This document shows positions 18,438 to 55,263 of a stretch of 64,000 bases of DNA, one piece after another. The notes under the pieces are model-generated. The model made no database searches. It was not told the DNA's origin and saw only the letters and a list, made by a program, of their open reading frames with translations. How positions within the stretch are numbered: position 1 is the first letter of the stretch; each line of letters opens with the position of its first letter. The position numbers and the translations under genes are program-made. Origin of the DNA: a virus. The stretch spans positions 19,708 through 83,707 of the IMG/VR virus record IMGVR_UViG_3300047095_000535; one strand, given 5' to 3'.

Positions 18438-18911
18438 TTAAACGTCTATAACCGCTTTTTCCTTTTCAGAGTCCGTAGGTAAAAGTTTTGTTCTAAGTAG
18501 TTCTTCCCTACTTAATAGGTTTTCAGTGCCAATGTTCATCAGTTTCATTACATTGTTCTTGGAGTCGATATCCATCTGCTTGATCTCTTTTTGTCCCTTC
18601 AGCTTATCCTCCGCTAACTTCAGCTTGGAAAGAGCGTCAATAGCGGAAGTTGTGGCTTTTGCTAATTCGGCAATGCTTTCTACCATTTTGGCGTCTACCG
18701 CCCCGGTACCAACGTCTTTTGACAGGGTTTGTAACATGTCAACACAATTAGAGATTACAGAGGACGCATTATCTATTACAAACTTTTCAATATCGTCTTT
18801 TGATAAATCTGGTCGATCTTTTTCAATGGTAGAAGTTTTATGATTATGGTTTTTCAATTGGGATATAATATCCTCAACGTCCCGGTCCAAATCTTCATTA
18901 TAATCATTCAT
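18438..18911 (-). CDS. Putative terminase small subunit (gp16-like)
   Basis: A 157-residue, largely helical protein. Layout resembles gp16 of T4-like phages: a short disordered N-terminus, a helical core (FVIDNASSVISNCVDMLQTL, then IAELAKATTSAIDALSKLKL) and a C-terminal segment KNNVMKLMNIGTENLL. Small terminases form rings that regulate gp17. I set the start at the ATG at 18909-18911 because the octamer GTAAATAT lies exactly four bases upstream; the in-frame ATG at 18959 would add 16 residues and place the octamer within the gene. It is far from terL, which is unusual but not rare. Confidence 0.5.
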   Translation of the reverse strand: MNDYNEDLDRDVEDIISQLKNHNHKTSTIEKDRPDLSKDDIEKFVIDNASSVISNCVDMLQTLSKDVGTGAVDAKMVESIAELAKATTSAIDALSKLKLAEDKLKGQKEIKQMDIDSKNNVMKLMNIGTENLLSREELLRTKLLPTDSEKEKAVIDV

Positions 18912-19634: not shown

Positions 19635-20680
19635 ATATACAAACACAAGTAGTTGAAGCCCGAAACAGTGGAAAAACTTATACGGAGATATATCAGGAAT
19701 TTGGAGTAGCCAAATCCACCGCACAAGATTGGGTGAGAAAATCACAGACGTCGGGGTACCCTACGGTCACTCCTTATATCAATCATAATTTGGACCGGGA
19801 CGGTAAACAAAAATTTCGTAGAACGGAAGAAGAAGTGTTGGACTTCTTGGAACAACTGGCCCCTATAAATCTTCCCGCCCTTAAAGCTTCTGTTCCAGAA
19901 GTGGAGCTGTCGTCCTATGCGGTGGTTTGTTCCGACTTACACTTTCCTTTACAGTGTGAGAAGTCCGTGGCGATATTATTTGAGACTATCAGGCGTCTAA
20001 ACCCCTCTACTATAATCATCAATGGCGATAGCTGCGATATTCTAGCTCTATCGAGATTTCCAAAAGATATTGTCAAGGGATATGACCTCTTGACAGAGAG
20101 AGTCGCCTACCAGAACTTTTTACATGAGTTGATTTCCATTAGTAATGGTGCAACCATTTATGAAACCAACGCCAACCACTCGTCCGGTGGAGTTGAATCA
20201 AGACTTAGACGGTACTTAAATGAACGGATTCCTGAGCTAGCCAAACTGCCGGAAGTGGTGGATATGTTGAGCTATGAGAACCTGTTTCTTGGTCCCTATA
20301 GAGAGTATGTTCAGTTGGTGGACTACGTTGATCTGAACGGGCTATATGTCATGCATGGCACTACAGTAAGGAAGAACCCGGGGAGTTCGGTGATGGGCGA
20401 AATGGAGCGATTCCGGGCGTCTATAATGATGGGACATGTTCACCGCATGGGATGCGTGAGTTTGCGTCAGCCTTCCATCGGTGCTAGAGAAGAACATCAG
20501 CTTCGCGGGTATGAAATAGGATGCATGTGCGACCTAAACCCGATTTATGCGAGTAGTCCGAATTGGACCAATGGGTTCGCGATTGTAGCTTTAGGAGAAG
20601 ACACGTTCGGAGTCGAACTGGTTTCTATTATAAACGGCGCGGCAACCATTTCAACATTAGGTGCAACAATTGTTGCGTAA
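19631..20680 (+). CDS. Metallophosphoesterase with N-terminal HTH
   Basis: A 349-residue protein. Residues about 15-35 (TYTEIYQEFGVAKSTAQDWV) form a helix-turn-helix of the resolvase/terminase type. The calcineurin-like phosphoesterase domain follows, with motifs SDLHFP (about 100), NGDSCD (about 131), NANH (about 178), MHG (about 238) and GHVHRMG (about 262), which bind the two metals. HTH plus phosphoesterase fusions occur in phages; the substrate is unknown (nucleic acid or nucleotide). It sits at the end of the late region, just before the first early box. Confidence 0.85.
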   Translation: MNIQTQVVEARNSGKTYTEIYQEFGVAKSTAQDWVRKSQTSGYPTVTPYINHNLDRDGKQKFRRTEEEVLDFLEQLAPINLPALKASVPEVELSSYAVVCSDLHFPLQCEKSVAILFETIRRLNPSTIIINGDSCDILALSRFPKDIVKGYDLLTERVAYQNFLHELISISNGATIYETNANHSSGGVESRLRRYLNERIPELAKLPEVVDMLSYENLFLGPYREYVQLVDYVDLNGLYVMHGTTVRKNPGSSVMGEMERFRASIMMGHVHRMGCVSLRQPSIGAREEHQLRGYEIGCMCDLNPIYASSPNWTNGFAIVALGEDTFGVELVSIINGAATISTLGATIVA

Positions 20681-42413: not shown

Positions 42414-42757
42414 ATGCTATTATGATGCTAACACCTTATAAGGACCGGGGAGTATGGATGTTTGATGACCCTTCGGTTGGACTATTACGCGAACCCTTCG
42501 TGTTGGGTATCGGGGAAATCTTGGATAAGATGACCGAGGATATTGCCGATGCCGTTAAGGGGTTTAACCTGTTTTTCTCCTCTACTGAGTTTCCCGCATG
42601 TCAAGGGTTTCTTAATCGGTGGAAAGCGGACTCCGGAGGTACTTGGTATGTTTGGGTGACGGAAGAAATGGCAGGATGGTTATGCCCCGCATTGTTCAAA
42701 TATTTTCAAATCGCTCCTGATGAATTGTACTTCCGAGCGGAAGCGATTAAACACTAA
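42410..42757 (+). CDS. Conserved phage/bacterial protein (DUF6717-like)
   Basis: A 115-residue protein with the pattern GVWMFDDPSVGLLREPFVLG, then FNLFFSSTEFPACQGFL, WYVWVTEEMAGWLCPALFKY and APDELYFRAEAI. I associate this with DUF6717, of unknown function. The stop TAA is the end of the following box variant TAAACACTAA, so the protein ends AIKH. Confidence 0.65.
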   Translation: MNAIMMLTPYKDRGVWMFDDPSVGLLREPFVLGIGEILDKMTEDIADAVKGFNLFFSSTEFPACQGFLNRWKADSGGTWYVWVTEEMAGWLCPALFKYFQIAPDELYFRAEAIKH

Positions 42758-42765
42758 GGTATGAT
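42748..42765 (+). promoter_or_regulatory. Early-type promoter (TAAACACTAA variant)
   Basis: Box at 42748-42757, -10-like TATGAT at 42760-42765, six bases to an ATG at 42772 that opens only a five-codon frame (MILPV, then stop). The transcript is therefore a leader or RNA. Confidence 0.68.
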
Positions 42766-42771
42766 TGGCAC

Positions 42772-42888
42772 ATGATTCTCCCTGTATAGGGAATCTATAT
42801 GCTTCATGTTTACGTCAAGCATTGTTGGTGACATTTCCAACTTGCCACATTATTCATATAGTATATTTAACACCGAAGTCCATTCATA
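42772..42888 (+). ncRNA. Structured leader or small RNA ahead of an RNA ligase gene
   Basis: About 117 bases from the predicted start of the 42748 promoter to the ligase ATG. Three consecutive hairpins are visible: GATT(CT)CCCT with AGGGAATC around GTAT (42774-42795), ATGCTT with AAGCAT around a 12-base loop, and GTTGG with CCAAC around TGACATTT. No usable ORF lies within. It may be an autoregulatory 5' leader of the ligase or an independent small RNA; no terminator with a T-run is visible. Confidence 0.5.
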
Positions 42889-44001
42889 ATGAAAATATCT
42901 GAACAAATACTCCATTTTTTAAAAGCTCCTTCTGACGAGTTTAAGCTTAAGTATGGTCAGGTGTTTGGTAGAGACTGTGTGTTGATTACGCCTTCCGATA
43001 TGGGAACACATTGGAACGCGGAAAACTCAATTTTTCGTAGTTGTTTATGTGATTGTAACAGCGGGCAGATTTATAATATCGGGTTTCGAAAGTTTGTAAA
43101 CTTCTCCGAACGTCCGGAATATGAACCTTGGGATAACGAGTGGAAGGTAGAGGCTCGCCACAAAATAGATGGTTCACTGCTATGTATTTCAAAAATAGAT
43201 AAAAATGTATTGGCTAGAACCAGAGGGGTGTTTGATGCTACAGTTCATGAGACTGGAGACGAGATAGAAACGTTTAAAAATAAGTATCCCTTGGTTTTTG
43301 ATAATGAATATATAAACTCAGAAAGATACACGATATTATGCGAACATACTACACCAAATCGTGTCATAGTTATTAGAGAGCATTCAATACCTACTCTAAC
43401 CCTATTGGGTATTATATCCCACGACACTTGTAAATATGTGTCACAAGACGAGTTGGACGAGTGCGCTATTCGATGGGGAGTGAACCGTCCTGAAAAATAT
43501 GAATATGCTTCCGTTTCGGAATGTCTCGCGGATGTGGCGGCTTGGAAAGGTAAGGAAGGGGTGGTACTATGTTCTCCTGATGGACAAACCCTGAAGAAAA
43601 TCAAGGCGGATTTGTATCTGGAACTCCACAAGGTTTCTACGGGGTACACCAACATCAATCAGGTTTTGGACCTGTTCATGACCACTCCTCGATTTCCTGA
43701 TTGGAAGGACTTCTACACATATGTCGAAACCACTTTGGATTACGAGGTTGCGGAGAAGCTGTGTGGTCATATTGGCAAGATCAGCGACTCTTATAAACTG
43801 GTTCTGGAGCATATCGACAAGATTCACAAGGCGGTGGACATGGTTCGTGGACCTTCGTTCACCCGTAAGGATCAAGCTTTGTTTATTACAGGGCGTTGGG
43901 ACGATTGGAGAAAGGTAGCGGCGTTCCAGATACTTGACAACCGGGAATTGGATGATAAGGTTATCCGGAAGGGAATTGAGACTTACCTACTTTACGATTA
44001 A
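42889..44001 (+). CDS. RNA ligase (T4 Rnl1-like type)
   Basis: A 370-residue protein. Motif I is KIDG (nucleophile Lys about 92, in EARHKIDGSLLCISK), followed by ARTRG, a YTILCEHTTPNR motif and motif V-like EGVVLCSPD with KKIKADLYLELHK, as in T4 RnlA-type ligases. The C-terminal part is helical. It joins RNA ends, for instance tRNAs cleaved by host anticodon nucleases. It is one of the few early genes with a long leader. Confidence 0.85.
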   Translation: MKISEQILHFLKAPSDEFKLKYGQVFGRDCVLITPSDMGTHWNAENSIFRSCLCDCNSGQIYNIGFRKFVNFSERPEYEPWDNEWKVEARHKIDGSLLCISKIDKNVLARTRGVFDATVHETGDEIETFKNKYPLVFDNEYINSERYTILCEHTTPNRVIVIREHSIPTLTLLGIISHDTCKYVSQDELDECAIRWGVNRPEKYEYASVSECLADVAAWKGKEGVVLCSPDGQTLKKIKADLYLELHKVSTGYTNINQVLDLFMTTPRFPDWKDFYTYVETTLDYEVAEKLCGHIGKISDSYKLVLEHIDKIHKAVDMVRGPSFTRKDQALFITGRWDDWRKVAAFQILDNRELDDKVIRKGIETYLLYD

Positions 44002-45371: not shown

Positions 45372-46244
45372 ATGGACATTCTCAACTTAGATGCGAATTT
45401 TAAACCTTTCTCCGACTTGGACCTATTGGTAGGGTTTGTGTTGGAACATAAAACGTTCAACTTCTTAGGGGGAGAACCACACATCCAGATCCTATCGGAT
45501 AGAATAAGTTCGGAGTTGGTTATCACTCAAAGGTTCAATAACATTGCCGACCTGTTCAACATCGTTCTAGCCAATGATGCGGCTAAACGGAAGGGGTACG
45601 AGACGATTCACTTATATCTTCCATACTTCCCTGCTGCTCGTCAGGATCGTGTATGTAATCCCGGGGAACCTCTCACGGTTAAGGTTTTCACGGATATTAT
45701 AAACTCCTGCGGGTTCAAATCCGTGAAGATTTTCCGCCCACATAGTGAGGTTGTGGTGGCGTTGTTGGATAGGGTGATTGTGGTTGATCTTGAGAAGTAC
45801 CATGTCCAGAAAATCGTGCAACAAAATTCAGATGGTCGCTATTTCAACATCGTTTGTCCTGATGCGGGTGCTGGAAAATCTACAGAGAAGATCGTTCGGT
45901 TCTTAATAGAACAAGACAAACATAGGACGTATAACCTGATTCGTTGTGAGAAGATTCGTGACGTTACGGATGGTAAACTTCTAGGGTTCACTGTTCATGA
46001 AACAGATGATCTTAGAGGATATCCAACATTGATCGTGGATGATATCTGCGCCATGGGCGGAACGTTTATCGGACTCGCTAAGAAGCTGCGTACGATAAAC
46101 TGTGGAAAGCTTATGCTTTATACCAGTCACGCGGATTGTATGGCGGGTCTTAACAACGTCGCTTCGGTGTTTGATAAGGTTTATATCACTAACAGCAAAC
46201 AGGACTGGCCTTCGGATTCGGTTATCAACGTTATAAATCTATGA
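45372..46244 (+). CDS. PRPP-synthetase-like protein, candidate ADP-ribose pyrophosphokinase (Adps)
   Basis: A 290-residue protein with the ribose-phosphate pyrophosphokinase plan: LPYFPAARQDR (83-93; cellular enzymes IPYFxYARQDR), CPDAGAGKS (162-170, differing from the cellular SPDxGGxxRA) and the PRPP loop VDDICAMGGTF (222-232). In phages such proteins occur with NAMPT-like proteins; in the NARP1 pathway the homologue (Adps) makes ADP-ribose pyrophosphate from ADP-ribose and ATP. The altered SPDxGG segment fits a changed substrate, but this is inference. It overlaps the NADAR gene by four bases. Confidence 0.82.
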   Translation: MDILNLDANFKPFSDLDLLVGFVLEHKTFNFLGGEPHIQILSDRISSELVITQRFNNIADLFNIVLANDAAKRKGYETIHLYLPYFPAARQDRVCNPGEPLTVKVFTDIINSCGFKSVKIFRPHSEVVVALLDRVIVVDLEKYHVQKIVQQNSDGRYFNIVCPDAGAGKSTEKIVRFLIEQDKHRTYNLIRCEKIRDVTDGKLLGFTVHETDDLRGYPTLIVDDICAMGGTFIGLAKKLRTINCGKLMLYTSHADCMAGLNNVASVFDKVYITNSKQDWPSDSVINVINL

Positions 46245-46795
46245 TACTATATAAAAATCAACTATTAGGCGCGACGATGAACGTCACGCAGTGTCGGATC
46301 TATTTTTTGGGAGGCGTCTTCTCACAATGGACAAAGTGTAATATTTATGACGCGAATCTGGATATCACATTCAATTGTGCGGAACAGGCGATGATGTATG
46401 CCAAGGCACTCACGTTTTTCGATCAAGATGCGGCTCAACAAGTATTAGATACTTTAGATCCAAGGGAGCATAAGGCCATTGGGAGGTCCATTAAAAACTA
46501 CGATGATGCCAGATGGTCGGAAGTACGGTTTGATATCGTTAAGAATATCAACTATATGAAGTTCAACCAAAATCCTACGTGGAGGGAGCTGTTGATCATG
46601 ACATATCCATACGAATTGATTGAGGCGAATCCTAGTGATACGATATGGGGAGTTGGACTTCATGAAGACGACCCTCTTATTTTATCAAAGGATAACTGGA
46701 AGGGAACTAACTTATTGGGGCAAGCTATTATGGCTGCCAGAGATATGATTCTGAAAAACTATACTGTAAGCTTGAAGAACACTTATGAACGCTGA
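46241..46795 (+). CDS. NADAR (YbiA-like) protein
   Basis: A 184-residue protein. Motifs typical of NADAR: YFLGGVFSQWTKC (about 22-34), FNCAEQAMMYAKAL (about 46-60), then KAIGRSIKNYD with W...R and WGVGL (about 147) before NLLGQAIMAARD. NADAR proteins remove ADP-ribose from guanine in DNA (DarT1/NADAR) and hydrolyse N-glycosidic bonds in related metabolites. Coupled to the PRPP-synthetase-like gene by overlap, strengthening an NAD/ADP-ribose theme. An alternative start at residue 13 is possible. Confidence 0.85.
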   Translation: MILYKNQLLGATMNVTQCRIYFLGGVFSQWTKCNIYDANLDITFNCAEQAMMYAKALTFFDQDAAQQVLDTLDPREHKAIGRSIKNYDDARWSEVRFDIVKNINYMKFNQNPTWRELLIMTYPYELIEANPSDTIWGVGLHEDDPLILSKDNWKGTNLLGQAIMAARDMILKNYTVSLKNTYER

Positions 46796-47009
46796 ACATG
46801 CGAGGGCGATGTCTGATGACGCGAATCGAGCGAAGTATTCTAAAGACTTGAACAACATCGCTACCGCTATAATGGAACGTGCTAAAGACGGGTGTTATAG
46901 CGTTACGGTTCCTCCTACTGATGGGTATTCGTTCTTCGTCCAAGGGTATCTTCGTGCGATGGGGTATAAGGTTACGATGTATCAAGGAAGGTACGAGATA
47001 GATTGGTGA
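46785..47009 (+). CDS. Hypothetical protein, 74 aa
   Basis: Small; helical N-terminus with ANRAKYSKDLNNIATAIMER and a C-terminal GYLRAMGYKVTMYQGRYEI, a pattern seen in small phage proteins. Overlaps the NADAR gene by 11 bases. Function unknown. Confidence 0.52.
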   Translation: MNAEHARAMSDDANRAKYSKDLNNIATAIMERAKDGCYSVTVPPTDGYSFFVQGYLRAMGYKVTMYQGRYEIDW

Positions 47010-47011
47010 GT

Positions 47012-47029
47012 TAAACACTAGAATGACAT
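47012..47029 (+). promoter_or_regulatory. Early-type promoter (TAAACACTAG box)
   Basis: Box at 47012-47021, -10-like TGACAT at 47024-47029 (weak), five bases to ATG 47035. Confidence 0.62.
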
Positions 47030-47034
47030 AAGAT

Positions 47035-47310
47035 ATGGATATGAAATTAGAAGACATGAACTCCACCCAGCTTCGGGAGTATGCTAATGAACTGGACCGA
47101 CAGGAAAGGATTAAAGATATTCCAACTCCGAAAGACGACATAGACTTCGAGGAGGTAAAAAACGTGGCAAGGGAACATTTAGAATCTTTGGCATGTGGCC
47201 ATGTCTCCGAGTTAGAATGTTTCCATGAAGAACTTTATGATGAAGTCATGGAGGCGATTTATGGCGGCGATATTTTCAAGTGGATCATTGGACACACTGA
47301 ACGATCATGA
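47035..47310 (+). CDS. Hypothetical protein, 91 aa
   Basis: Acidic and helical (STQLREYANELDRQERIKDI). Not recognised. It overlaps the next gene by four bases (ATGA). Confidence 0.52.
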   Translation: MDMKLEDMNSTQLREYANELDRQERIKDIPTPKDDIDFEEVKNVAREHLESLACGHVSELECFHEELYDEVMEAIYGGDIFKWIIGHTERS

Positions 47311-48170
47311 CCAGCATCGAATTATTCAAGACAGAACTCCGTGAGTTGTTGGCAGGAATGAGTGATGAGGAACTTCTCAAATCGTTGGAAGATATCAGAA
47401 TCAAAAACGAAAACGCTTCCCCTACTTTCAAGTTTTATCGGGTATGTAACACCGATATAGAGCAAGGGTTATGGTATGATTACACCGGAAAGTTCCTTGG
47501 GTTGATCCACGATGAATTTTCATTCTGTTCCAACTCTTCTCTTAAAATGGATTATGATGAAGATTTGGTAGGGTGGCTATCCGCTACTTCTTCAATAGAA
47601 GACCTTTATAAATGGTTTACGGTTGACGATATATTAAAACTGCAATCCTATGGGTGGTGTATACATGAGTACAAAGTCCGTAGTTTTTGGTTTTATGAAC
47701 CGTTCCAACATTTTGTCATTTGTCAGGAAACCAGTGTACCAGTAAGAAAGATTATGCTAATAAAAACAAAAGAAGACATCCCTTCCGATTGGAAGGTTCT
47801 AAACGTAAGAAAAACAACCACGGTTGAAATGCGCCCATGTCAGGGTGTTGAAAGGTTCAAGGTATCTTGGTCCGACTCCGAACTGGTCAGTGATCCCGAA
47901 ACGGACGTCATTGTTATTTCCAGTGATAACGAGTACCCGTGTAAGAAGGACATTTTCATAGAGACTTATACTCCGTTGAAATGGATTAAGAAAGCGGTCA
48001 ATCAGATCGTGGAAATACCGCAAGGGGTTACTCTGGAAGTTGCGACTCTGGAAGGTACTGTCAGTGACGTGACTTATCCAGATTATATCGCAATTGGAGC
48101 TAGGGGAGAGGTGTACGTGAACACCAAGAAGTTCTTTGACGAGAGTCTTGAGGTTGTGAACGATGAATAA
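47307..48170 (+). CDS. Hypothetical protein, 287 aa, with conserved GLWYDYTG domain
   Basis: After a helical start, residues about 42-140 (EQGLWYDYTGKFLGLIHDEF, GWLSATSSIEDLYKWF) match a small domain of unknown function I recall from phage proteins; residues 150-287 are beta-rich and not recognised. It sits between the NADAR and NAMPT-like genes, so a link to NAD or ADP-ribose handling is conceivable but not shown. Its stop TAA is part of the next promoter box. Confidence 0.55.
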   Translation: MTSIELFKTELRELLAGMSDEELLKSLEDIRIKNENASPTFKFYRVCNTDIEQGLWYDYTGKFLGLIHDEFSFCSNSSLKMDYDEDLVGWLSATSSIEDLYKWFTVDDILKLQSYGWCIHEYKVRSFWFYEPFQHFVICQETSVPVRKIMLIKTKEDIPSDWKVLNVRKTTTVEMRPCQGVERFKVSWSDSELVSDPETDVIVISSDNEYPCKKDIFIETYTPLKWIKKAVNQIVEIPQGVTLEVATLEGTVSDVTYPDYIAIGARGEVYVNTKKFFDESLEVVNDE

Positions 48171-48185
48171 ACACTAGGCTATACT
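48168..48185 (+). promoter_or_regulatory. Early-type promoter of the NAMPT-like gene
   Basis: Box at 48168-48177, -10-like TATACT at 48180-48185, six bases to ATG 48192. Confidence 0.74.
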
Positions 48186-48191
48186 ATAAAT

Positions 48192-49820
48192 ATGAAAATG
48201 TTACCATGTCTGAATGAGGACGCCTATAAAATTGACCATCGGAGACAGTATCCGAGTAATTCACAATTAGTCTTTAGTAATTTCACTGCCCGTGGCAGTA
48301 GGGTCGAAGGAGTGGATAAGGTTATTTTCTTCGGGTTACAATATTTTATTAAAAAGTACTTGATTGACGAGTGGAACGATAATTTTTTCAATGTCGATGT
48401 GGAAGAAGTAGTGGCGAAGTATAACCGGAGAGTCCGTAACTACCTTGGCCCTAACTTGATTGGTGATCAACACATTCGGGAGTTGCATTCATTAGGATAT
48501 CTACCATTGGAGATACGGGCGGTTCCCGAAGGATCTAATGTCAATTTACGGGTTCCGATGTTGGTGGTATGGAACACCGATCCTAGGTTTTTCTGGTTGA
48601 CCAACCTCATTGAGACCATTCTTTCAACAACTATTTGGATGCCTTGTACCAGTGCGACTACTGCTTTAATGTATCGGAAAGAGTTGAACGAATGGGCAAA
48701 TAAGACTAACCCGGAAATGATTGATTTTGTACCTTGGCAAGGTCACGACTTTGCTTTTAGGGGACACGGTTCATTCGAATCCGCTTGTAGTAGTGGGGCG
48801 GCACACCTATTAAGTTTTTCCGGTACGGATACCGTACCTGCCGTTGATTTTCTCGAAGAGTATTATAATGCGGATAGCGATAACGAGCTTGTTGGAGGTA
48901 GTGTAGCGGCATCAGAACACTCTGTGGCCTGTATGGGGTCTACATATGATAAAGATGGCAACGCGAGTGATTACGCATATTTTGAAAGAATGGTTACGGA
49001 GGTATACCCATCCGGTATTGTCAGTCTTGTTTCAGATACTTTCGATTTTTGGGGAGTCATAAATCCTGACGGGGGTACTCTTGTCAAACTAAAGGATATC
49101 ATCTTGGCCCGCGACGGCAAGGTGGTGATTCGTCCTGATTCCGGAGATCCGGTGAAGATTGTCACTGGATGGACTGATAAGGAATTATATTTCGAAGACG
49201 GTAAGGCATACGAGAATCTTAGTATTCCTGCGGAAGGACCGCATGGGAGACCTACGAAGATTGATAGTAAGGGCCGTGCGATTTCCGAGGTTGAACGCAA
49301 GGGATTGATTCAATGCCTATGGGAAATCTTCGGTGGTACTGTGTCTTCTACTGGATATAAACAGTTGGATAGCCACATTGGAGCGATCTATGGTGATAGT
49401 ATCACCCTCAAGCGTTGTAAGGATATCTGTGATCGATTGGCTGCGAAGGGATTCGCGTCCACCAATCTTGTGTATGGTATTGGAAGCTTTACCTATCAAG
49501 GGGCGGTTACACCCAACGCAATCGTTACACGGGACACTTACGGGTTCGCTGTGAAGTCAACCTATGGGGAAGTTCTAGAGGATGGAAACATCGTGGGTGT
49601 GGAAATCTTCAAAGATCCCATCACCGATGATGGACTCAAGAAATCCGCCAAGGGACTGATTGCGGTTTATGAAGATGAACACGGCGAGTTCTATATGAAG
49701 GATCAGGCCACATGGGAAGATGTCAAGAATTGTGCGTTCGTTCAAGTCTTTAAGGATGGAAGCCTAATTACCGACCACACTTTGGGTCAAATTAGGGAAC
49801 GAGTTAGTAAGAATTTTTAA
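48192..49820 (+). CDS. NAMPT-like transferase, candidate nicotinamide ADP-ribose transferase (Namat)
   Basis: A 542-residue protein of the nicotinamide phosphoribosyltransferase family: N-terminal DAYKIDHRRQYP and SNFTARGSR, then GHDFAFRG, a GGSVAASEHS motif (about 237) and VIRPDSGDPVK (about 315), all in the order of NAMPT. Cellular NAMPT makes NMN; in NARP1 the phage homologue (Namat) joins nicotinamide to ADP-ribose pyrophosphate to rebuild NAD+. A strong terminator follows. Whether it works with the PRPP-synthetase-like protein at 45372 is inferred from proximity and family pairing. Confidence 0.92.
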   Translation: MKMLPCLNEDAYKIDHRRQYPSNSQLVFSNFTARGSRVEGVDKVIFFGLQYFIKKYLIDEWNDNFFNVDVEEVVAKYNRRVRNYLGPNLIGDQHIRELHSLGYLPLEIRAVPEGSNVNLRVPMLVVWNTDPRFFWLTNLIETILSTTIWMPCTSATTALMYRKELNEWANKTNPEMIDFVPWQGHDFAFRGHGSFESACSSGAAHLLSFSGTDTVPAVDFLEEYYNADSDNELVGGSVAASEHSVACMGSTYDKDGNASDYAYFERMVTEVYPSGIVSLVSDTFDFWGVINPDGGTLVKLKDIILARDGKVVIRPDSGDPVKIVTGWTDKELYFEDGKAYENLSIPAEGPHGRPTKIDSKGRAISEVERKGLIQCLWEIFGGTVSSTGYKQLDSHIGAIYGDSITLKRCKDICDRLAAKGFASTNLVYGIGSFTYQGAVTPNAIVTRDTYGFAVKSTYGEVLEDGNIVGVEIFKDPITDDGLKKSAKGLIAVYEDEHGEFYMKDQATWEDVKNCAFVQVFKDGSLITDHTLGQIRERVSKNF

Positions 49821-49910: not shown

Positions 49911-50153
49911 GTGGAGAAGATCCTATGTAATAACCCATGGGAAGGTCTGTGCTTTATGATGAACAAGGCACTTATTCGAGAAAAGCTGGACCTTCCGGTG
50001 ATGAAAAGCTTCAAGGACGATCCTAAGTTTTTTAAAAAATACGAAGTGCGGACATGTCCGGTGCTATTGGTGCTTGACAAAGGCAAGGTCGTTGATAGGA
50101 TTAAGGGGATTCAAGAAATTATAAACCATTTAAAAGAAGATGTACAAACTTAA
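49911..50153 (+). CDS. Thioredoxin-fold-like small protein
   Basis: An 80-residue protein. The C-terminal part (KYEVRTCPVLLVLDKGKVVD, then RIKGIQEIINHL) looks like the second half of a thioredoxin/glutaredoxin fold with the conserved cis-proline after C (TCPV), but there is no CxxC redox pair, so redox activity is doubtful. GTG start set by the promoter. The homing endonuclease is inserted at its end. Confidence 0.58.
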   Translation: MEKILCNNPWEGLCFMMNKALIREKLDLPVMKSFKDDPKFFKKYEVRTCPVLLVLDKGKVVDRIKGIQEIINHLKEDVQT

Positions 50154-50878
50154 TAATACCTCTCTCCTACTGGATACTTCTTTTTGCGGTTGTTGATGTT
50201 TTCAACTAATTTTAAATACTTATCATATTTTCTAACTAACCCTTTACTCTCTTTATCATAAAACAAGGAAAGAATGTTGCGTATGCTGTTTGTATTTTTT
50301 ACACCAAGGCAAGATGACCTATGGACGACTCCTGATGGTTTTTGTCTTTCATACTTCCATATTTTATACGAGGTATCATGCTTTTGTAGAAAAGTAGTGA
50401 GAGGGGACCAGTCTTGGTCTATACCTGACCAAAATTGTAAGGTTATTGATTTATTCGCCCCGTTTCCTATGTATAAACACCCATCCCCATCAAAGAAACC
50501 ATGCCAAAAGCAAGTCTCATACTGGTCTCCGATATGTTGTAATATTTTTCTAGGGCCGACTGTCTTATTTTTATAATCCATACTTATTAAAAAGTTCACC
50601 AAATGTTTATTTGAAGTGTTTAGTTGTGATTGTACGCTTCCGAACGGGAGTCCTTTCTTAACTCTTTGCCGTTCATAATAGTTCCAACTTCCTATAGATT
50701 CAAATGTAGGTAACAATGCCAACATATCTTCTTTTTTTAGTTCTACATTTATAGCGTTTTTATAAATTGTTCCATCTGCCCATAATAATCCTAATATATA
50801 TGAAAGTTCTTCGTTTATACTGGTTAAAAATTGAGTGTGGTCTACTCGATAAATTTTGGTTGGTTTGTCAGTCTTCAT
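50150..50878 (-). CDS. LAGLIDADG homing endonuclease (copy 2)
   Basis: A 242-residue protein with two LAGLIDADG motifs: YILGLLWADG (27-36) and FWHGFFDGDG (124-133). No N-terminal HTH, unlike copy 1. It is on the strand opposite to the neighbouring genes, AT-rich, preceded by a late octamer, and its stop overlaps the previous gene's stop by four bases, as copy 1 does. A mobile selfish gene. Confidence 0.92.
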   Translation of the reverse strand: MKTDKPTKIYRVDHTQFLTSINEELSYILGLLWADGTIYKNAINVELKKEDMLALLPTFESIGSWNYYERQRVKKGLPFGSVQSQLNTSNKHLVNFLISMDYKNKTVGPRKILQHIGDQYETCFWHGFFDGDGCLYIGNGANKSITLQFWSGIDQDWSPLTTFLQKHDTSYKIWKYERQKPSGVVHRSSCLGVKNTNSIRNILSLFYDKESKGLVRKYDKYLKLVENINNRKKKYPVGERYY

Positions 50879-52664: not shown

Positions 52665-52863
52665 TTTCAGACTGGTTGGACAAGAAGAAGGATATTACCT
52701 CATTCGGTCTAATGAACTACATAATAGATAACGATATTGACATTGAAACAGTGCGTCTTCGGACTATGCGCTACAAAATTCAAGATTCAAAACTTTGTGT
52801 TCAACCCTTAAAGATGAAAAAACAAAAATTAGCTTTCTTTCTAATTTGAAAACCAGTCTGAAA
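52665..52863 (+). ncRNA. Candidate structured RNA closed by a 13-bp stem
   Basis: TTTCAGACTGGTT at 52665-52677 is perfectly complementary to AACCAGTCTGAAA at 52851-52863, enclosing 173 bases with no gene. Inside are a UUCG-capped hairpin (AGTGC GTC with GAC and GCGCT, bulge UAU, near 52750) and AAATTAG with CTAATTT around CTTTCTTT near 52840. It follows the 52203 gene without its own promoter. It may be a processed RNA or a 3' UTR element. Confidence 0.6.
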
Positions 52864-52873
52864 CCCTCTTCAT

Positions 52874-52891
52874 TAAACACTACAATATACT
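52874..52891 (+). promoter_or_regulatory. Early-type promoter of a non-coding transcript
   Basis: Box variant TAAACACTAC at 52874-52883, -10-like TATACT at 52886-52891. Predicted start is about 52898; no start codon or ORF follows at the usual place, so the product is probably RNA. Confidence 0.7.
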
Positions 52892-52913
52892 AAATATATA
52901 ACAACAAGCTTTC

Positions 52914-52972
52914 GTCACCAGCTACCAGATGGGATATTATCTGTAAACAATCCTCCTGTCTAATCCGGTGAC
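52914..52972 (+). repeat. Structured RNA motif, unit 1
   Basis: P1 GTCACC/GGTGAC; CAGCTACC at 52919-52926; P2 AGATGGGA (52927-52934) with TCCTGTCT (52954-52961), two wobble pairs. Confidence 0.75.
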
Positions 52973-52982
52973 AATTTATTTA

Positions 52983-53043
52983 GGTTCAGCTACCGATAGG
53001 GATATTATTTATTAGGAAACAACACTCCTTATCTATTCGAACC
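52983..53043 (+). repeat. Structured RNA motif, unit 2
   Basis: P1 GGTTC/GAACC; CAGCTACC at 52987-52994; P2 GATAGGGA (52995-53002) with TCCTTATC (53026-53033), one wobble pair; followed by six T's. Confidence 0.75.
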
Positions 53044-53092
53044 TTTTTTCTCACCCGTTCATTTGGTGAAAATCTAAATGAGCGGGCCTTAT

Positions 53093-53156
53093 CCACCAGC
53101 TACCAGAAGAGATATTTTAACCTCAAATTAAACAACACTCTCTTCTAATTCGGTGG
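53093..53156 (+). repeat. Structured RNA motif, unit 3
   Basis: P1 CCACC/GGTGG; CAGCTACC at 53097-53104; P2 AGAAGAG (53105-53111) with CTCTTCT (53140-53146), perfect; followed by ten T's. Confidence 0.75.
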
Positions 53157-53169
53157 TTTTTTTTTTCGT

Positions 53170-53187
53170 TAAACACTAAAGTATAAA
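53170..53187 (+). promoter_or_regulatory. Early-type promoter (TAAACACTAA variant)
   Basis: Box at 53170-53179, -10-like TATAAA at 53182-53187, six bases to ATG 53194; it begins three bases after the ncRNA terminator T-run. Confidence 0.72.
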
Positions 53188-53193
53188 ACACAC

Positions 53194-55263
53194 ATGAACA
53201 TCGCAGCTAATAGATACTATATCGCGAATAAAGGGGCAACCAACAAGGTTTCATGGGCTATCGCCAATGCGATGGCTACGGAATTGGCTTGTTATAATAT
53301 CGGTGTAAGCCGTCCCCTGATGGAAGCTATCGCATCCAATACCAACAAGGACGCGATGGATTTCTGTAAGCAGATTCTCAAGGACTATACTGTAGGAAAA
53401 CTCAATCCGCCTTTGTTCAAGAATTGGGAGGATCGGGCCTATTTTTCCTTCGATGAAATGATTGTGCAGATTTTCGGATACATTCTTCAAATCTCTGGCA
53501 ACGATCTGGAAAGCGAAGGGTACATGGAAGATATCTTATCCAAGGCGCAATACACCAAGGCTAAGACTCTTCAATTGGTTACTCTGGACGAGGCGTTGGA
53601 CAAGTTCCAAAGTCTAGTCGATGTGAGGGTTTCCTTGGGTAAGAAGGCACAAAAGACCTTACAGGAAGCGGGAGAAGACTTCGCGGATGTTATCAGTATT
53701 TATAATAAGCGGATTTATAGCGACGAAGCTAGGATCGCCGTGCTTATGGGACTTCTTAATAGAGTCTCTCTTTACACCGCGTTGGGTATGCTGAAGTGCA
53801 AGCCCGCCGACGTACTTCGTTATGCGGCGGCATTACATGACTTCGGCGGTGTTAAGCTACCCTATGACGTTATCTATGGTAAGCTGTCATGGGCGGATCG
53901 GGTTGCCTTGTTGGGATATCTCAACGATTACTTTGAACATGACGAACTCATGGAAGCAATGGGTAACAATCGGGAAGCTTGGAACAGATTCTTCAAGCAT
54001 CTTCACGTCTTCCAACAAAAGGGATTTGTAAATAGATTCCCCTATGTCGGGGTTTCCGCAAGGGTTTCCAATGGACATAAGATGGATAGTTTTCCCTCTG
54101 CGTACGCTGGTATTCTAAAGACTTTGGCGGGGGAAGACCTGATCGAAGTTTTACCTACTGGTAACACGGTGTATAGAACCTTCGCGTCCCGTATCACTTC
54201 AGCTATCGAGGAAAAGAGTTTCGATAAGATCTATAAGCTTCTGAATAAGAACGCCGGATATCTTCTTCGCAATCTTGCTTCTGTTTCCAATGGAATCGGT
54301 AAGAAGGATGAGAAGGACTTCGTAGGGTTTGTCCGCACCAAGTTGAACACCGCGTCTCCTGATGTATTGTTCTCAATTCTTAGTCTTGATATGGACGCGG
54401 AATACCGTGTAATCGATGTGAAGGGTAATACTGTCATCCAACCCGCGAGTTATCCTAAAGTCATTGGAGATATCCAAGGGGATATCCGTAGGGTTATCCA
54501 TGAACGCTGGGGATATAAGGGCAAGGTGATCGTTGAGGATGGATTGGAAGATAACATCGTTCCGTTCTTGGCTAAGAACACCAACCTACAACGTGGAACG
54601 CGGATTCCTTTCGAAGATAAGGACAGTATTTACTTCTACATGCATTGGGTTCAATCTCAAAAATGTCGGACGGATCTGGATTCCAGTTATATCGCGTTCG
54701 ACAAAAACTGGAACTCCACTACGATCTACTTTGGTAATCAAGCCAACTCTTTCATAACTCATGGTGGAGATATCACCAGTGCTCCCGCACCTAATGGTGC
54801 TACGGAGTATGGAAGAATCCGGTTGGATCGTATTCCCAAAACAGTGAAGTATATTGTTCCGATTATCAACGTATACACCGGGGAATCATTCTCCGAGTTG
54901 AAGGAAGCGTATGCGGGATTCATGTTCTCCAATAGCAACAGTTTTAAAATCAAAGACTCCCATGTTCGGTATGACCTAACTAATCCTGCTAACTCCAATG
55001 TCCCCTTCATTGTGGATGTGGATAATCGGGAGATCATCGTAATGGATTATAATAGTCGGACGAGACTTGGGTTCACCGCCCATTCCGAGATCGACAATAT
55101 GAAGAAGCTGATTTCTGCGGTTCAAACCAAGAACTATATCACTATCCAAAAGCTGGCGGATATGCTGTCGGGAGATAGTGACGAGGTTTCATTGGAGATT
55201 CGCAAATCTGTCAGGAGAGACGATGAAATCGCTCCCGAATCACTGGCGACCTTGTTTAAATGA
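53194..55263 (+). CDS. Large accessory protein with TerD-like C-terminal domain
   Basis: A 689-residue protein. The N-terminal 400 residues are helical and not clearly recognised (a possible repeat-type scaffold: LMGLLNRVSLYTALGMLKCK, GRTIHDFGG-like segment AALHDFGGVKLPYD). Residues about 490-590 (CRTDLDSSYIAFDKNWN, ATEYGRIRLDRIPKTVKYIV, then INVYTG and AYAGFMF) follow the TerD beta-sandwich pattern, a calcium-binding domain of tellurite-resistance and stress systems. It starts six bases after its promoter. Its job in a phage is unknown. Confidence 0.55.
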   Translation: MNIAANRYYIANKGATNKVSWAIANAMATELACYNIGVSRPLMEAIASNTNKDAMDFCKQILKDYTVGKLNPPLFKNWEDRAYFSFDEMIVQIFGYILQISGNDLESEGYMEDILSKAQYTKAKTLQLVTLDEALDKFQSLVDVRVSLGKKAQKTLQEAGEDFADVISIYNKRIYSDEARIAVLMGLLNRVSLYTALGMLKCKPADVLRYAAALHDFGGVKLPYDVIYGKLSWADRVALLGYLNDYFEHDELMEAMGNNREAWNRFFKHLHVFQQKGFVNRFPYVGVSARVSNGHKMDSFPSAYAGILKTLAGEDLIEVLPTGNTVYRTFASRITSAIEEKSFDKIYKLLNKNAGYLLRNLASVSNGIGKKDEKDFVGFVRTKLNTASPDVLFSILSLDMDAEYRVIDVKGNTVIQPASYPKVIGDIQGDIRRVIHERWGYKGKVIVEDGLEDNIVPFLAKNTNLQRGTRIPFEDKDSIYFYMHWVQSQKCRTDLDSSYIAFDKNWNSTTIYFGNQANSFITHGGDITSAPAPNGATEYGRIRLDRIPKTVKYIVPIINVYTGESFSELKEAYAGFMFSNSNSFKIKDSHVRYDLTNPANSNVPFIVDVDNREIIVMDYNSRTRLGFTAHSEIDNMKKLISAVQTKNYITIQKLADMLSGDSDEVSLEIRKSVRRDDEIAPESLATLFK

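Follow-up and report, generated by a model that had tools for sequence, protein, structure and literature searches.

The window analyzed here, a 64,000-nucleotide (nt) stretch of IMG/VR record IMGVR_UViG_3300047095_000535 (positions 19,708 to 83,707 of an 83.7-kilobase [kb] record), belongs to a T4-like myovirus, as judged from its terminase and tail sheath. At 52,874 to 53,169, it contains an array of three tandem RNA units on the plus strand, which an earlier note made from the sequence alone had described as a separately promoted noncoding RNA (ncRNA) with three copies of a covarying two-stem motif. The next gene (53194-55263, plus strand), which the note had overlooked, encodes a 689-amino-acid (aa) protein of the TerD-domain SCO0854 family. 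Here, we describe the array, its association with this gene in other phages and in bacterial plasmids, and the function that the two may share.

The RNA array and its neighboring gene

The three units are 59, 63, and 66 nt long and were found exactly where the earlier note had placed them. In each of them, an outer stem (P1) is followed by an internal loop, an inner stem (P2), and a large apical loop. Unit 1 (52914-52972) runs through a P1 of 6 base pairs (bp), AGCTACC, a P2 of 8 bp, a loop of the form TATT..AAACAA, P2′, AATCC, and P1′. Unit 2 (52982-53044) repeats this architecture and is directly followed by six T residues, and so does unit 3 (53092-53157), whose P1 extends into a run of ten T residues (53157-53166). 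This run would constitute an intrinsic terminator with unit 3 as its hairpin. Fold and sequence both place an extra hairpin of 11 to 13 bp between units 2 and 3 (53054-53086); like the ten-T run, it had already been pointed out in the earlier note. The minimum-free-energy fold of 52900-53170 (ViennaRNA) yielded all three units together with the extra hairpin, and its stability (z = -3.46) was reached by none of 200 shuffled sequences. P1 comprises 6 bp and P2 8 bp throughout, the sole mismatch being the outermost pair of unit 3. Thus, 41 of 42 stem cells are paired across the units (chance, about 3e-16 at the composition of the window), and sliding the structure by 1 to 3 columns as a control lowered the pairing to 42 to 52%. 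In 10 of the 14 pairs, both bases differ from one copy to another. The claim that the P1 and P2 sequences differ completely was nevertheless overstated: the covariation is strong, but P1 is partly identical in units 1 and 3, and 3 pairs are invariant across the copies. The unpaired segments are conserved as claimed, with AGCTACC in the 5′ internal loop, WATYC in the 3′ internal loop, and an apical loop that begins with TATT and contains AAACAA.

No open reading frame (ORF) of at least 40 aa was found in the array region, and the ORFs of 22 to 38 aa that touch it are of chance size. No Rfam family matched the window or the array at the gathering threshold, and relaxation to an E value of <10 returned only chance matches (E > 1), none of them to a riboswitch. 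No description of the array RNA was found in Rfam 15 or in open-access papers; since subscription papers and preprints lie outside this coverage, an earlier description is possible. The array is a noncoding structured RNA under selection, in a class absent from Rfam, and the earlier note was right in this respect.

Upstream of unit 1, the box TAAACACTA (52874-52882) and a -10-like TATACT (52886-52891) predict a transcription start at about 52898. The early-type promoter that had been proposed at this position holds as a phage box; a simple sigma-70 scan showed nothing above chance, so that the promoter call rests on the phage box and not on the E. coli consensus. The gene-start box of this phage has the form TAAACACTA-N3-TATAAT-like. 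The window contains 26 exact TAAACACTA boxes, every one of them on the plus strand and at a gene boundary, and the box is shared by the related genomes G003, G004, and G016. Most boxes are followed by an ATG or GTG at a distance of about 24 nt, counted from the first base of the box; this spacing suggests leaderless mRNAs, and leaderless transcription is apparent in this phage group. The TAAACACTA-N3-TATAAT boxes span 20691-63282 of the plus strand and mostly come without a Shine-Dalgarno sequence. As no start codon follows the box at 52874, we infer a free-standing transcript of about 270 nt (52898 to about 53166) for the array. The next promoter box (53170-53187, plus strand) serves the 689-aa gene, whose start codon lies 24 nt downstream. 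Candidate noncoding promoters in relatives proved to be tRNA runs or unremarkable stretches. At 42748-42889, another promoter box is followed by a five-codon ORF (ATGATTCTCCCTGTATAG) and a hairpin ahead of the next gene, and this region may represent a leader or a small RNA.

The 689-aa protein, our proposed partner of the array, comprises a helical N-terminal domain and a TerD domain at its C-terminal end (Pfam). It matched the SCO0854/MXAN_6230 family (NF041916) over residues 122 to 629 with 185 bits, which is under the cut-off of 600, and no RING was detected in it. No published function was found for this family. An AlphaFold model built from 52 sequences reached a predicted local distance difference test score (pLDDT) of 85, compared to 35 for a single-sequence model, and the PDB structures among its listed matches were only those of TerD. 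We rejected the partner as a Ro60/TROVE homolog: Pfam returned TerD only, and the matches listed by a PDB profile search and Foldseek comprised TerD structures and no Ro60. Scans with Pfam, NCBIfam, and PADLOC detected neither a type III toxin family nor a ToxN/CptN/TenpN-type endoribonuclease.

Linkage of arrays and the TerD-family gene across phages

A search with the window protein alone retrieved no relatives, and a profile from an alignment of five homologs was needed to find them; 68 viral loci encoding the protein were obtained in this way. Tandem two-stem units of the same geometry stand beside the gene in Weasels2 (Rhodococcus), a gut phage, RcXuper (Rhodobacter), and an uncultured phage. 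By script, repeated units were found to flank the protein gene, typically as GG-CYAT-P2-TTCCTTCT...P2′-NATTT-CC. A looser first unit finder matched equally on both strands of whole loci (274 plus, 279 minus) and was therefore used only for seeds beside the gene and then replaced by a covariance model. In an alignment of 27 units, 94% of the cells are paired, double changes occur in 145 cells compared to 42 in shuffles, and the covariation score is 0.95 (0.22 shuffled). Homologs, on whose covariation the earlier note had staked its reading, thus exist and covary.

With R2, the covariance model of the majority-type units, 133 matches (E < 0.1) were obtained across 63 sources, all on the same strand as the gene. 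At least one R2 unit was present in 50 of 60 loci, although some loci are near-duplicates and the counts are not all independent. Nearly all measured units (123 of 127) lie within 1 kb of the gene, 83 upstream and 44 downstream, and several loci have arrays on both sides. On control DNA (85 other phage loci, 752 kb), no match was obtained at E < 1. Named carriers include Rhodococcus phage Weasels2, in which the array adjoins the gene and RtcB is nearby, Rhodobacter phage RcXuper, and Xanthomonas phage XacN1. In a reverse test, IMG/VR was scanned for a sequence pattern regardless of proteins. R2 units were present in 48 of the resulting 60 stretches; the protein was encoded in 35 of these 48 but in none of the 12 stretches without R2 units, and a further 5 R2 stretches are on contigs whose other stretches carry it. 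The related genomes G003, G004, and G016 keep parts of the surrounding gene order but have neither the array nor the 689-aa gene, so that the two appear to be present or absent together. A search with R1 over 50 tail-sheath relatives and the whole of these three genomes revealed nothing convincing.

Ten loci had no R2 units, and units of other kinds were seen in five of them (L325, L327, L333, L317, and L319). L333 (Mycobacterium phage WXIN) folds into at least four tandem units, and the units of L317 and L319 bear a tRNA-like module. In L325 and L327, the two contigs whose proteins are closest to that of the window, window-type units lie directly upstream of the gene (E values of 1.3e-8 and 2.6e-8). 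The L325 protein is 54% identical to that of the window, compared to about 20% for other family members, and the L325 array begins with the promoter box seen in the window. A joint alignment of 8 window-type units showed covariation in 11 of 13 pairs. Two further window-type pattern scans led to 63 loci, of which only the L325 and L327 contigs have R1 units and only these encode the protein. Exact-pattern scans with the window loop bases over IMG/VR and GTDB genomes produced matches that all failed to fold. The window array does not have the majority loop consensus (GGCYAT / TTCCTTCT / TTTCC) and shares a separate loop type with L325 and L327. The loop bases therefore change together with the protein clade, as would be expected if the protein reads them. 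When the family is defined by its architecture (tandem, covarying units with a P1 of about 6 bp, an internal loop, a P2 of 7 to 8 bp, and a large apical loop), the window array belongs to it, and same-strand adjacency to a TerD-domain gene is common to the window and the wider family. Between the units of L325 (2040-2235), a promoter-like TTGACT...TATAAT is repeated, so that single units may be separately transcribed there.

tRNA-like modules and bacterial loci

In 12 loci, the apical loops of units hold 15 permuted tRNA-like modules, each made up, in this order, of a T arm, an acceptor stem with a short closing loop, and a D arm, while P2 takes the place of the anticodon stem. These modules were chosen by eye from 39 script matches, many of the others being ordinary tandem tRNA genes, and most units carry no such module. 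Arrays are often found near tRNA or transfer-messenger RNA (tmRNA) genes. Phage tmRNA genes near arrays occur at L258:808-1108 and L259:1432-1868, the latter being a permuted one of the alphaproteobacterial type. Rfam scans of L257 to L260 recognized no known Y RNA family. YrlA, a bacterial Y RNA, has a tRNA-like domain with D, T, and acceptor arms and a basal stem that tethers Rsr (PMC8394870), and RtcR controls rtcBA operons, in which rsr and genes for Y RNAs are frequently found (PMC7790460). The bacterial search for the protein family covered 10 genomes plus 14 controls. On a Variovorax plasmid, the gene is close to and divergent from rtcR, which encodes the activator of RNA repair, with two units (E value of 1e-9) downstream. 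This one bacterial locus is our best hint to a function. Streptomyces plasmids also carry the protein and RNA pair.

Elsewhere in the window, a second structured region (52665-52862), bounded by a 13-bp inverted repeat (TTTCAGACTGGTT/AACCAGTCTGAAA), separates a 151-aa gene from the array. Two gaps that follow this gene in relatives can be aligned with the region, one in G003 (L233:18634-18917) and one in G016 (L248, minus strand, about 18440-18700). Their closing stem is made of different bases, and the region is possibly another conserved ncRNA. A Prs-like phosphoribosyl pyrophosphate synthetase, a NADAR-domain protein, and NAMPT (45372-49820) make up a nicotinamide adenine dinucleotide (NAD) salvage set, and a LAGLIDADG-like protein on the minus strand (50150-50878) is probably a free-standing homing endonuclease.

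A proposed ribonucleoprotein and its alternatives

Given that the repeat travels with the TerD/SCO0854-family gene, a dedicated partnership of RNA and protein is the more probable function. We consider it reasonably probable that the array supplies the RNA of a ribonucleoprotein (RNP) whose protein is encoded just downstream and that this RNP works like Ro60-Y RNA. The three units would form one noncoding transcript, in which each unit would be a binding handle for the TerD-family protein. The protein would read the conserved unpaired bases as well as the two-helix shape (P1 of about 6 bp, asymmetric internal loop, P2 of about 8 bp), leaving the helix sequences free to change. The distal apical loop could serve as a display site, which elsewhere holds extra hairpins or the permuted tRNA-like module. 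As in Ro60-Y RNA, the RNA may tether or gate the protein near tRNA-type substrates, and the probable role would be the handling or repair of tRNA and other RNA damaged by host defenses. Transcription, protein binding, and the role in RNA repair are all inferred.

Several observations weigh against this interpretation. R2 was trained on units of the same loci, so that the forward linkage count is partly circular and the reverse test matters more; in the latter, 8 stretches had units without a visible partner, some of these stretches being incomplete. R2 did not match the window array, whose loop bases CAGCTACC and TATT differ from the GGCTAT and TTCCTTCT of the common family, and the kinship of the two is suggested by their common architecture, their common neighbor, and the ATTY of the 3′ loop. 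The window array contains no tRNA-like module. Among the matches listed by profile and by fold, no solved structure, that of Ro60 included, convincingly matched the helical N-terminal two-thirds of the protein, so that RNA binding by this domain is a guess.

The position of the window array, directly upstream of the gene and ending in a terminator with the unit 3 hairpin, would also suit a cis-acting leader, in which binding of the TerD-family protein, or of a ligand, to the units would attenuate the adjacent gene, as in autoregulated ribosomal-protein leaders. Most units elsewhere are upstream as well (83, compared to 44 downstream), but the remaining third follow the gene, and in several loci it is flanked by arrays on either side. 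In the window, a separate promoter box serves the gene beyond the terminator, and an attenuator would not be expected to contain tRNA-like modules such as those seen in other loci. We regard such a leader as unlikely. ToxIN-type systems consist of tandem RNA repeats, a terminator, and then a protein gene. This layout, with the terminator between repeats and gene, holds in the window and would agree with repeats that act as an antitoxin inhibiting an adjacent toxin in a type III toxin-antitoxin-like pair. The absence of any protein match other than TerD and the SCO0854 family, the differing stem sequences of the repeats, the tRNA-like cargo of some of them, and the frequent downstream arrays make this explanation slightly less credible still.

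The earlier note had suggested a ligand-binding array or a sponge or decoy for a host factor, and nothing points to either in particular. Units that mimic tRNA parts could absorb anticodon nucleases of the host or some other host factor, in which case the protein would be incidental. Permuted modules in 12 loci, the location of arrays amid the tRNA and tmRNA genes of several phages, and the suggestion that YrlA competitively inhibits an anticodon nuclease (PMC7790460) speak for a decoy. Its chances appear as slim as those of the antitoxin, given that most units, including those of the window, have no tRNA-like module and that the constant link to one protein family, with an RNA type tracking the protein clade, would be left unexplained. 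Least probable, and by our estimate very improbable, is an array of metabolite-binding aptamers, e.g., for NAD-type ligands. The phage does encode NAMPT, Prs, and NADAR, and compact two-stem folds with conserved loops resemble aptamers; however, no Rfam riboswitch matched even at E < 10, arrays of the same architecture occur beside the TerD-type protein in phages that had not been chosen for their NAD genes, and no regulated downstream gene is needed.

Returning to the RNP, we give roughly even chances to the broader proposal of a phage and plasmid class with a TerD-domain scaffold and a cognate array RNA. Its units would be interchangeable adapters, some of which display permuted tRNA mimics, and the class would be a counterpart to Ro60-Y RNA, independent of it, that repairs RNA or opposes defenses that cleave tRNAs. 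If this is true, dozens of phages as well as Streptomyces and Variovorax plasmids carry an undescribed RNA family with an identified protein partner. The few bacterial RNPs that use tRNA-mimicking RNAs would gain a second, apparently unrelated protein scaffold, and a TerD-family protein so far carrying only a domain name would gain a function. Moreover, the ways in which phages protect tRNAs under attack, or repair them, could be tested directly with this system, and the plasmid copies in bacteria make it testable in laboratory strains.

Among known systems, riboswitch aptamers for NAD+ and other ligands share compact stems, conserved internal and apical loops, and sometimes a tandem arrangement with the array, which differs from them in lacking an Rfam match, in its putative free-standing transcript, and in its linkage to one protein family. 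Type III toxin-antitoxin loci (ToxI) likewise combine tandem structured RNA repeats, a terminator, and an adjacent protein gene, whereas the stems described here diverge between repeats, the arrays may follow the gene, and there is no ToxN-type nuclease. The partner resembles the MXAN_6230/SCO0854 RING proteins over the region given above, but the phage version remains below the family cut-off and has no detectable RING. YrlA and Rsr/Ro60 provide the model for our proposal. In YrlA and in some array units, a modular RNA joins one or more stems for a protein (putative in the arrays) to a tRNA-like module (T arm, acceptor, and D arm); in both systems, the RNA gene adjoins the protein gene, and one array locus lies beside rtcR. 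Unlike Rsr/Ro60, the partner carries a TerD domain, and no similarity to TROVE/Ro60 was detected in it; unlike YrlA, the RNA is a tandem array with other conserved loops, is not recognized by Rfam, and lacks the tRNA-like module in most units. With neither a detectable TROVE fold nor Rfam membership, the array system is not a member of the Ro60-Y RNA group.
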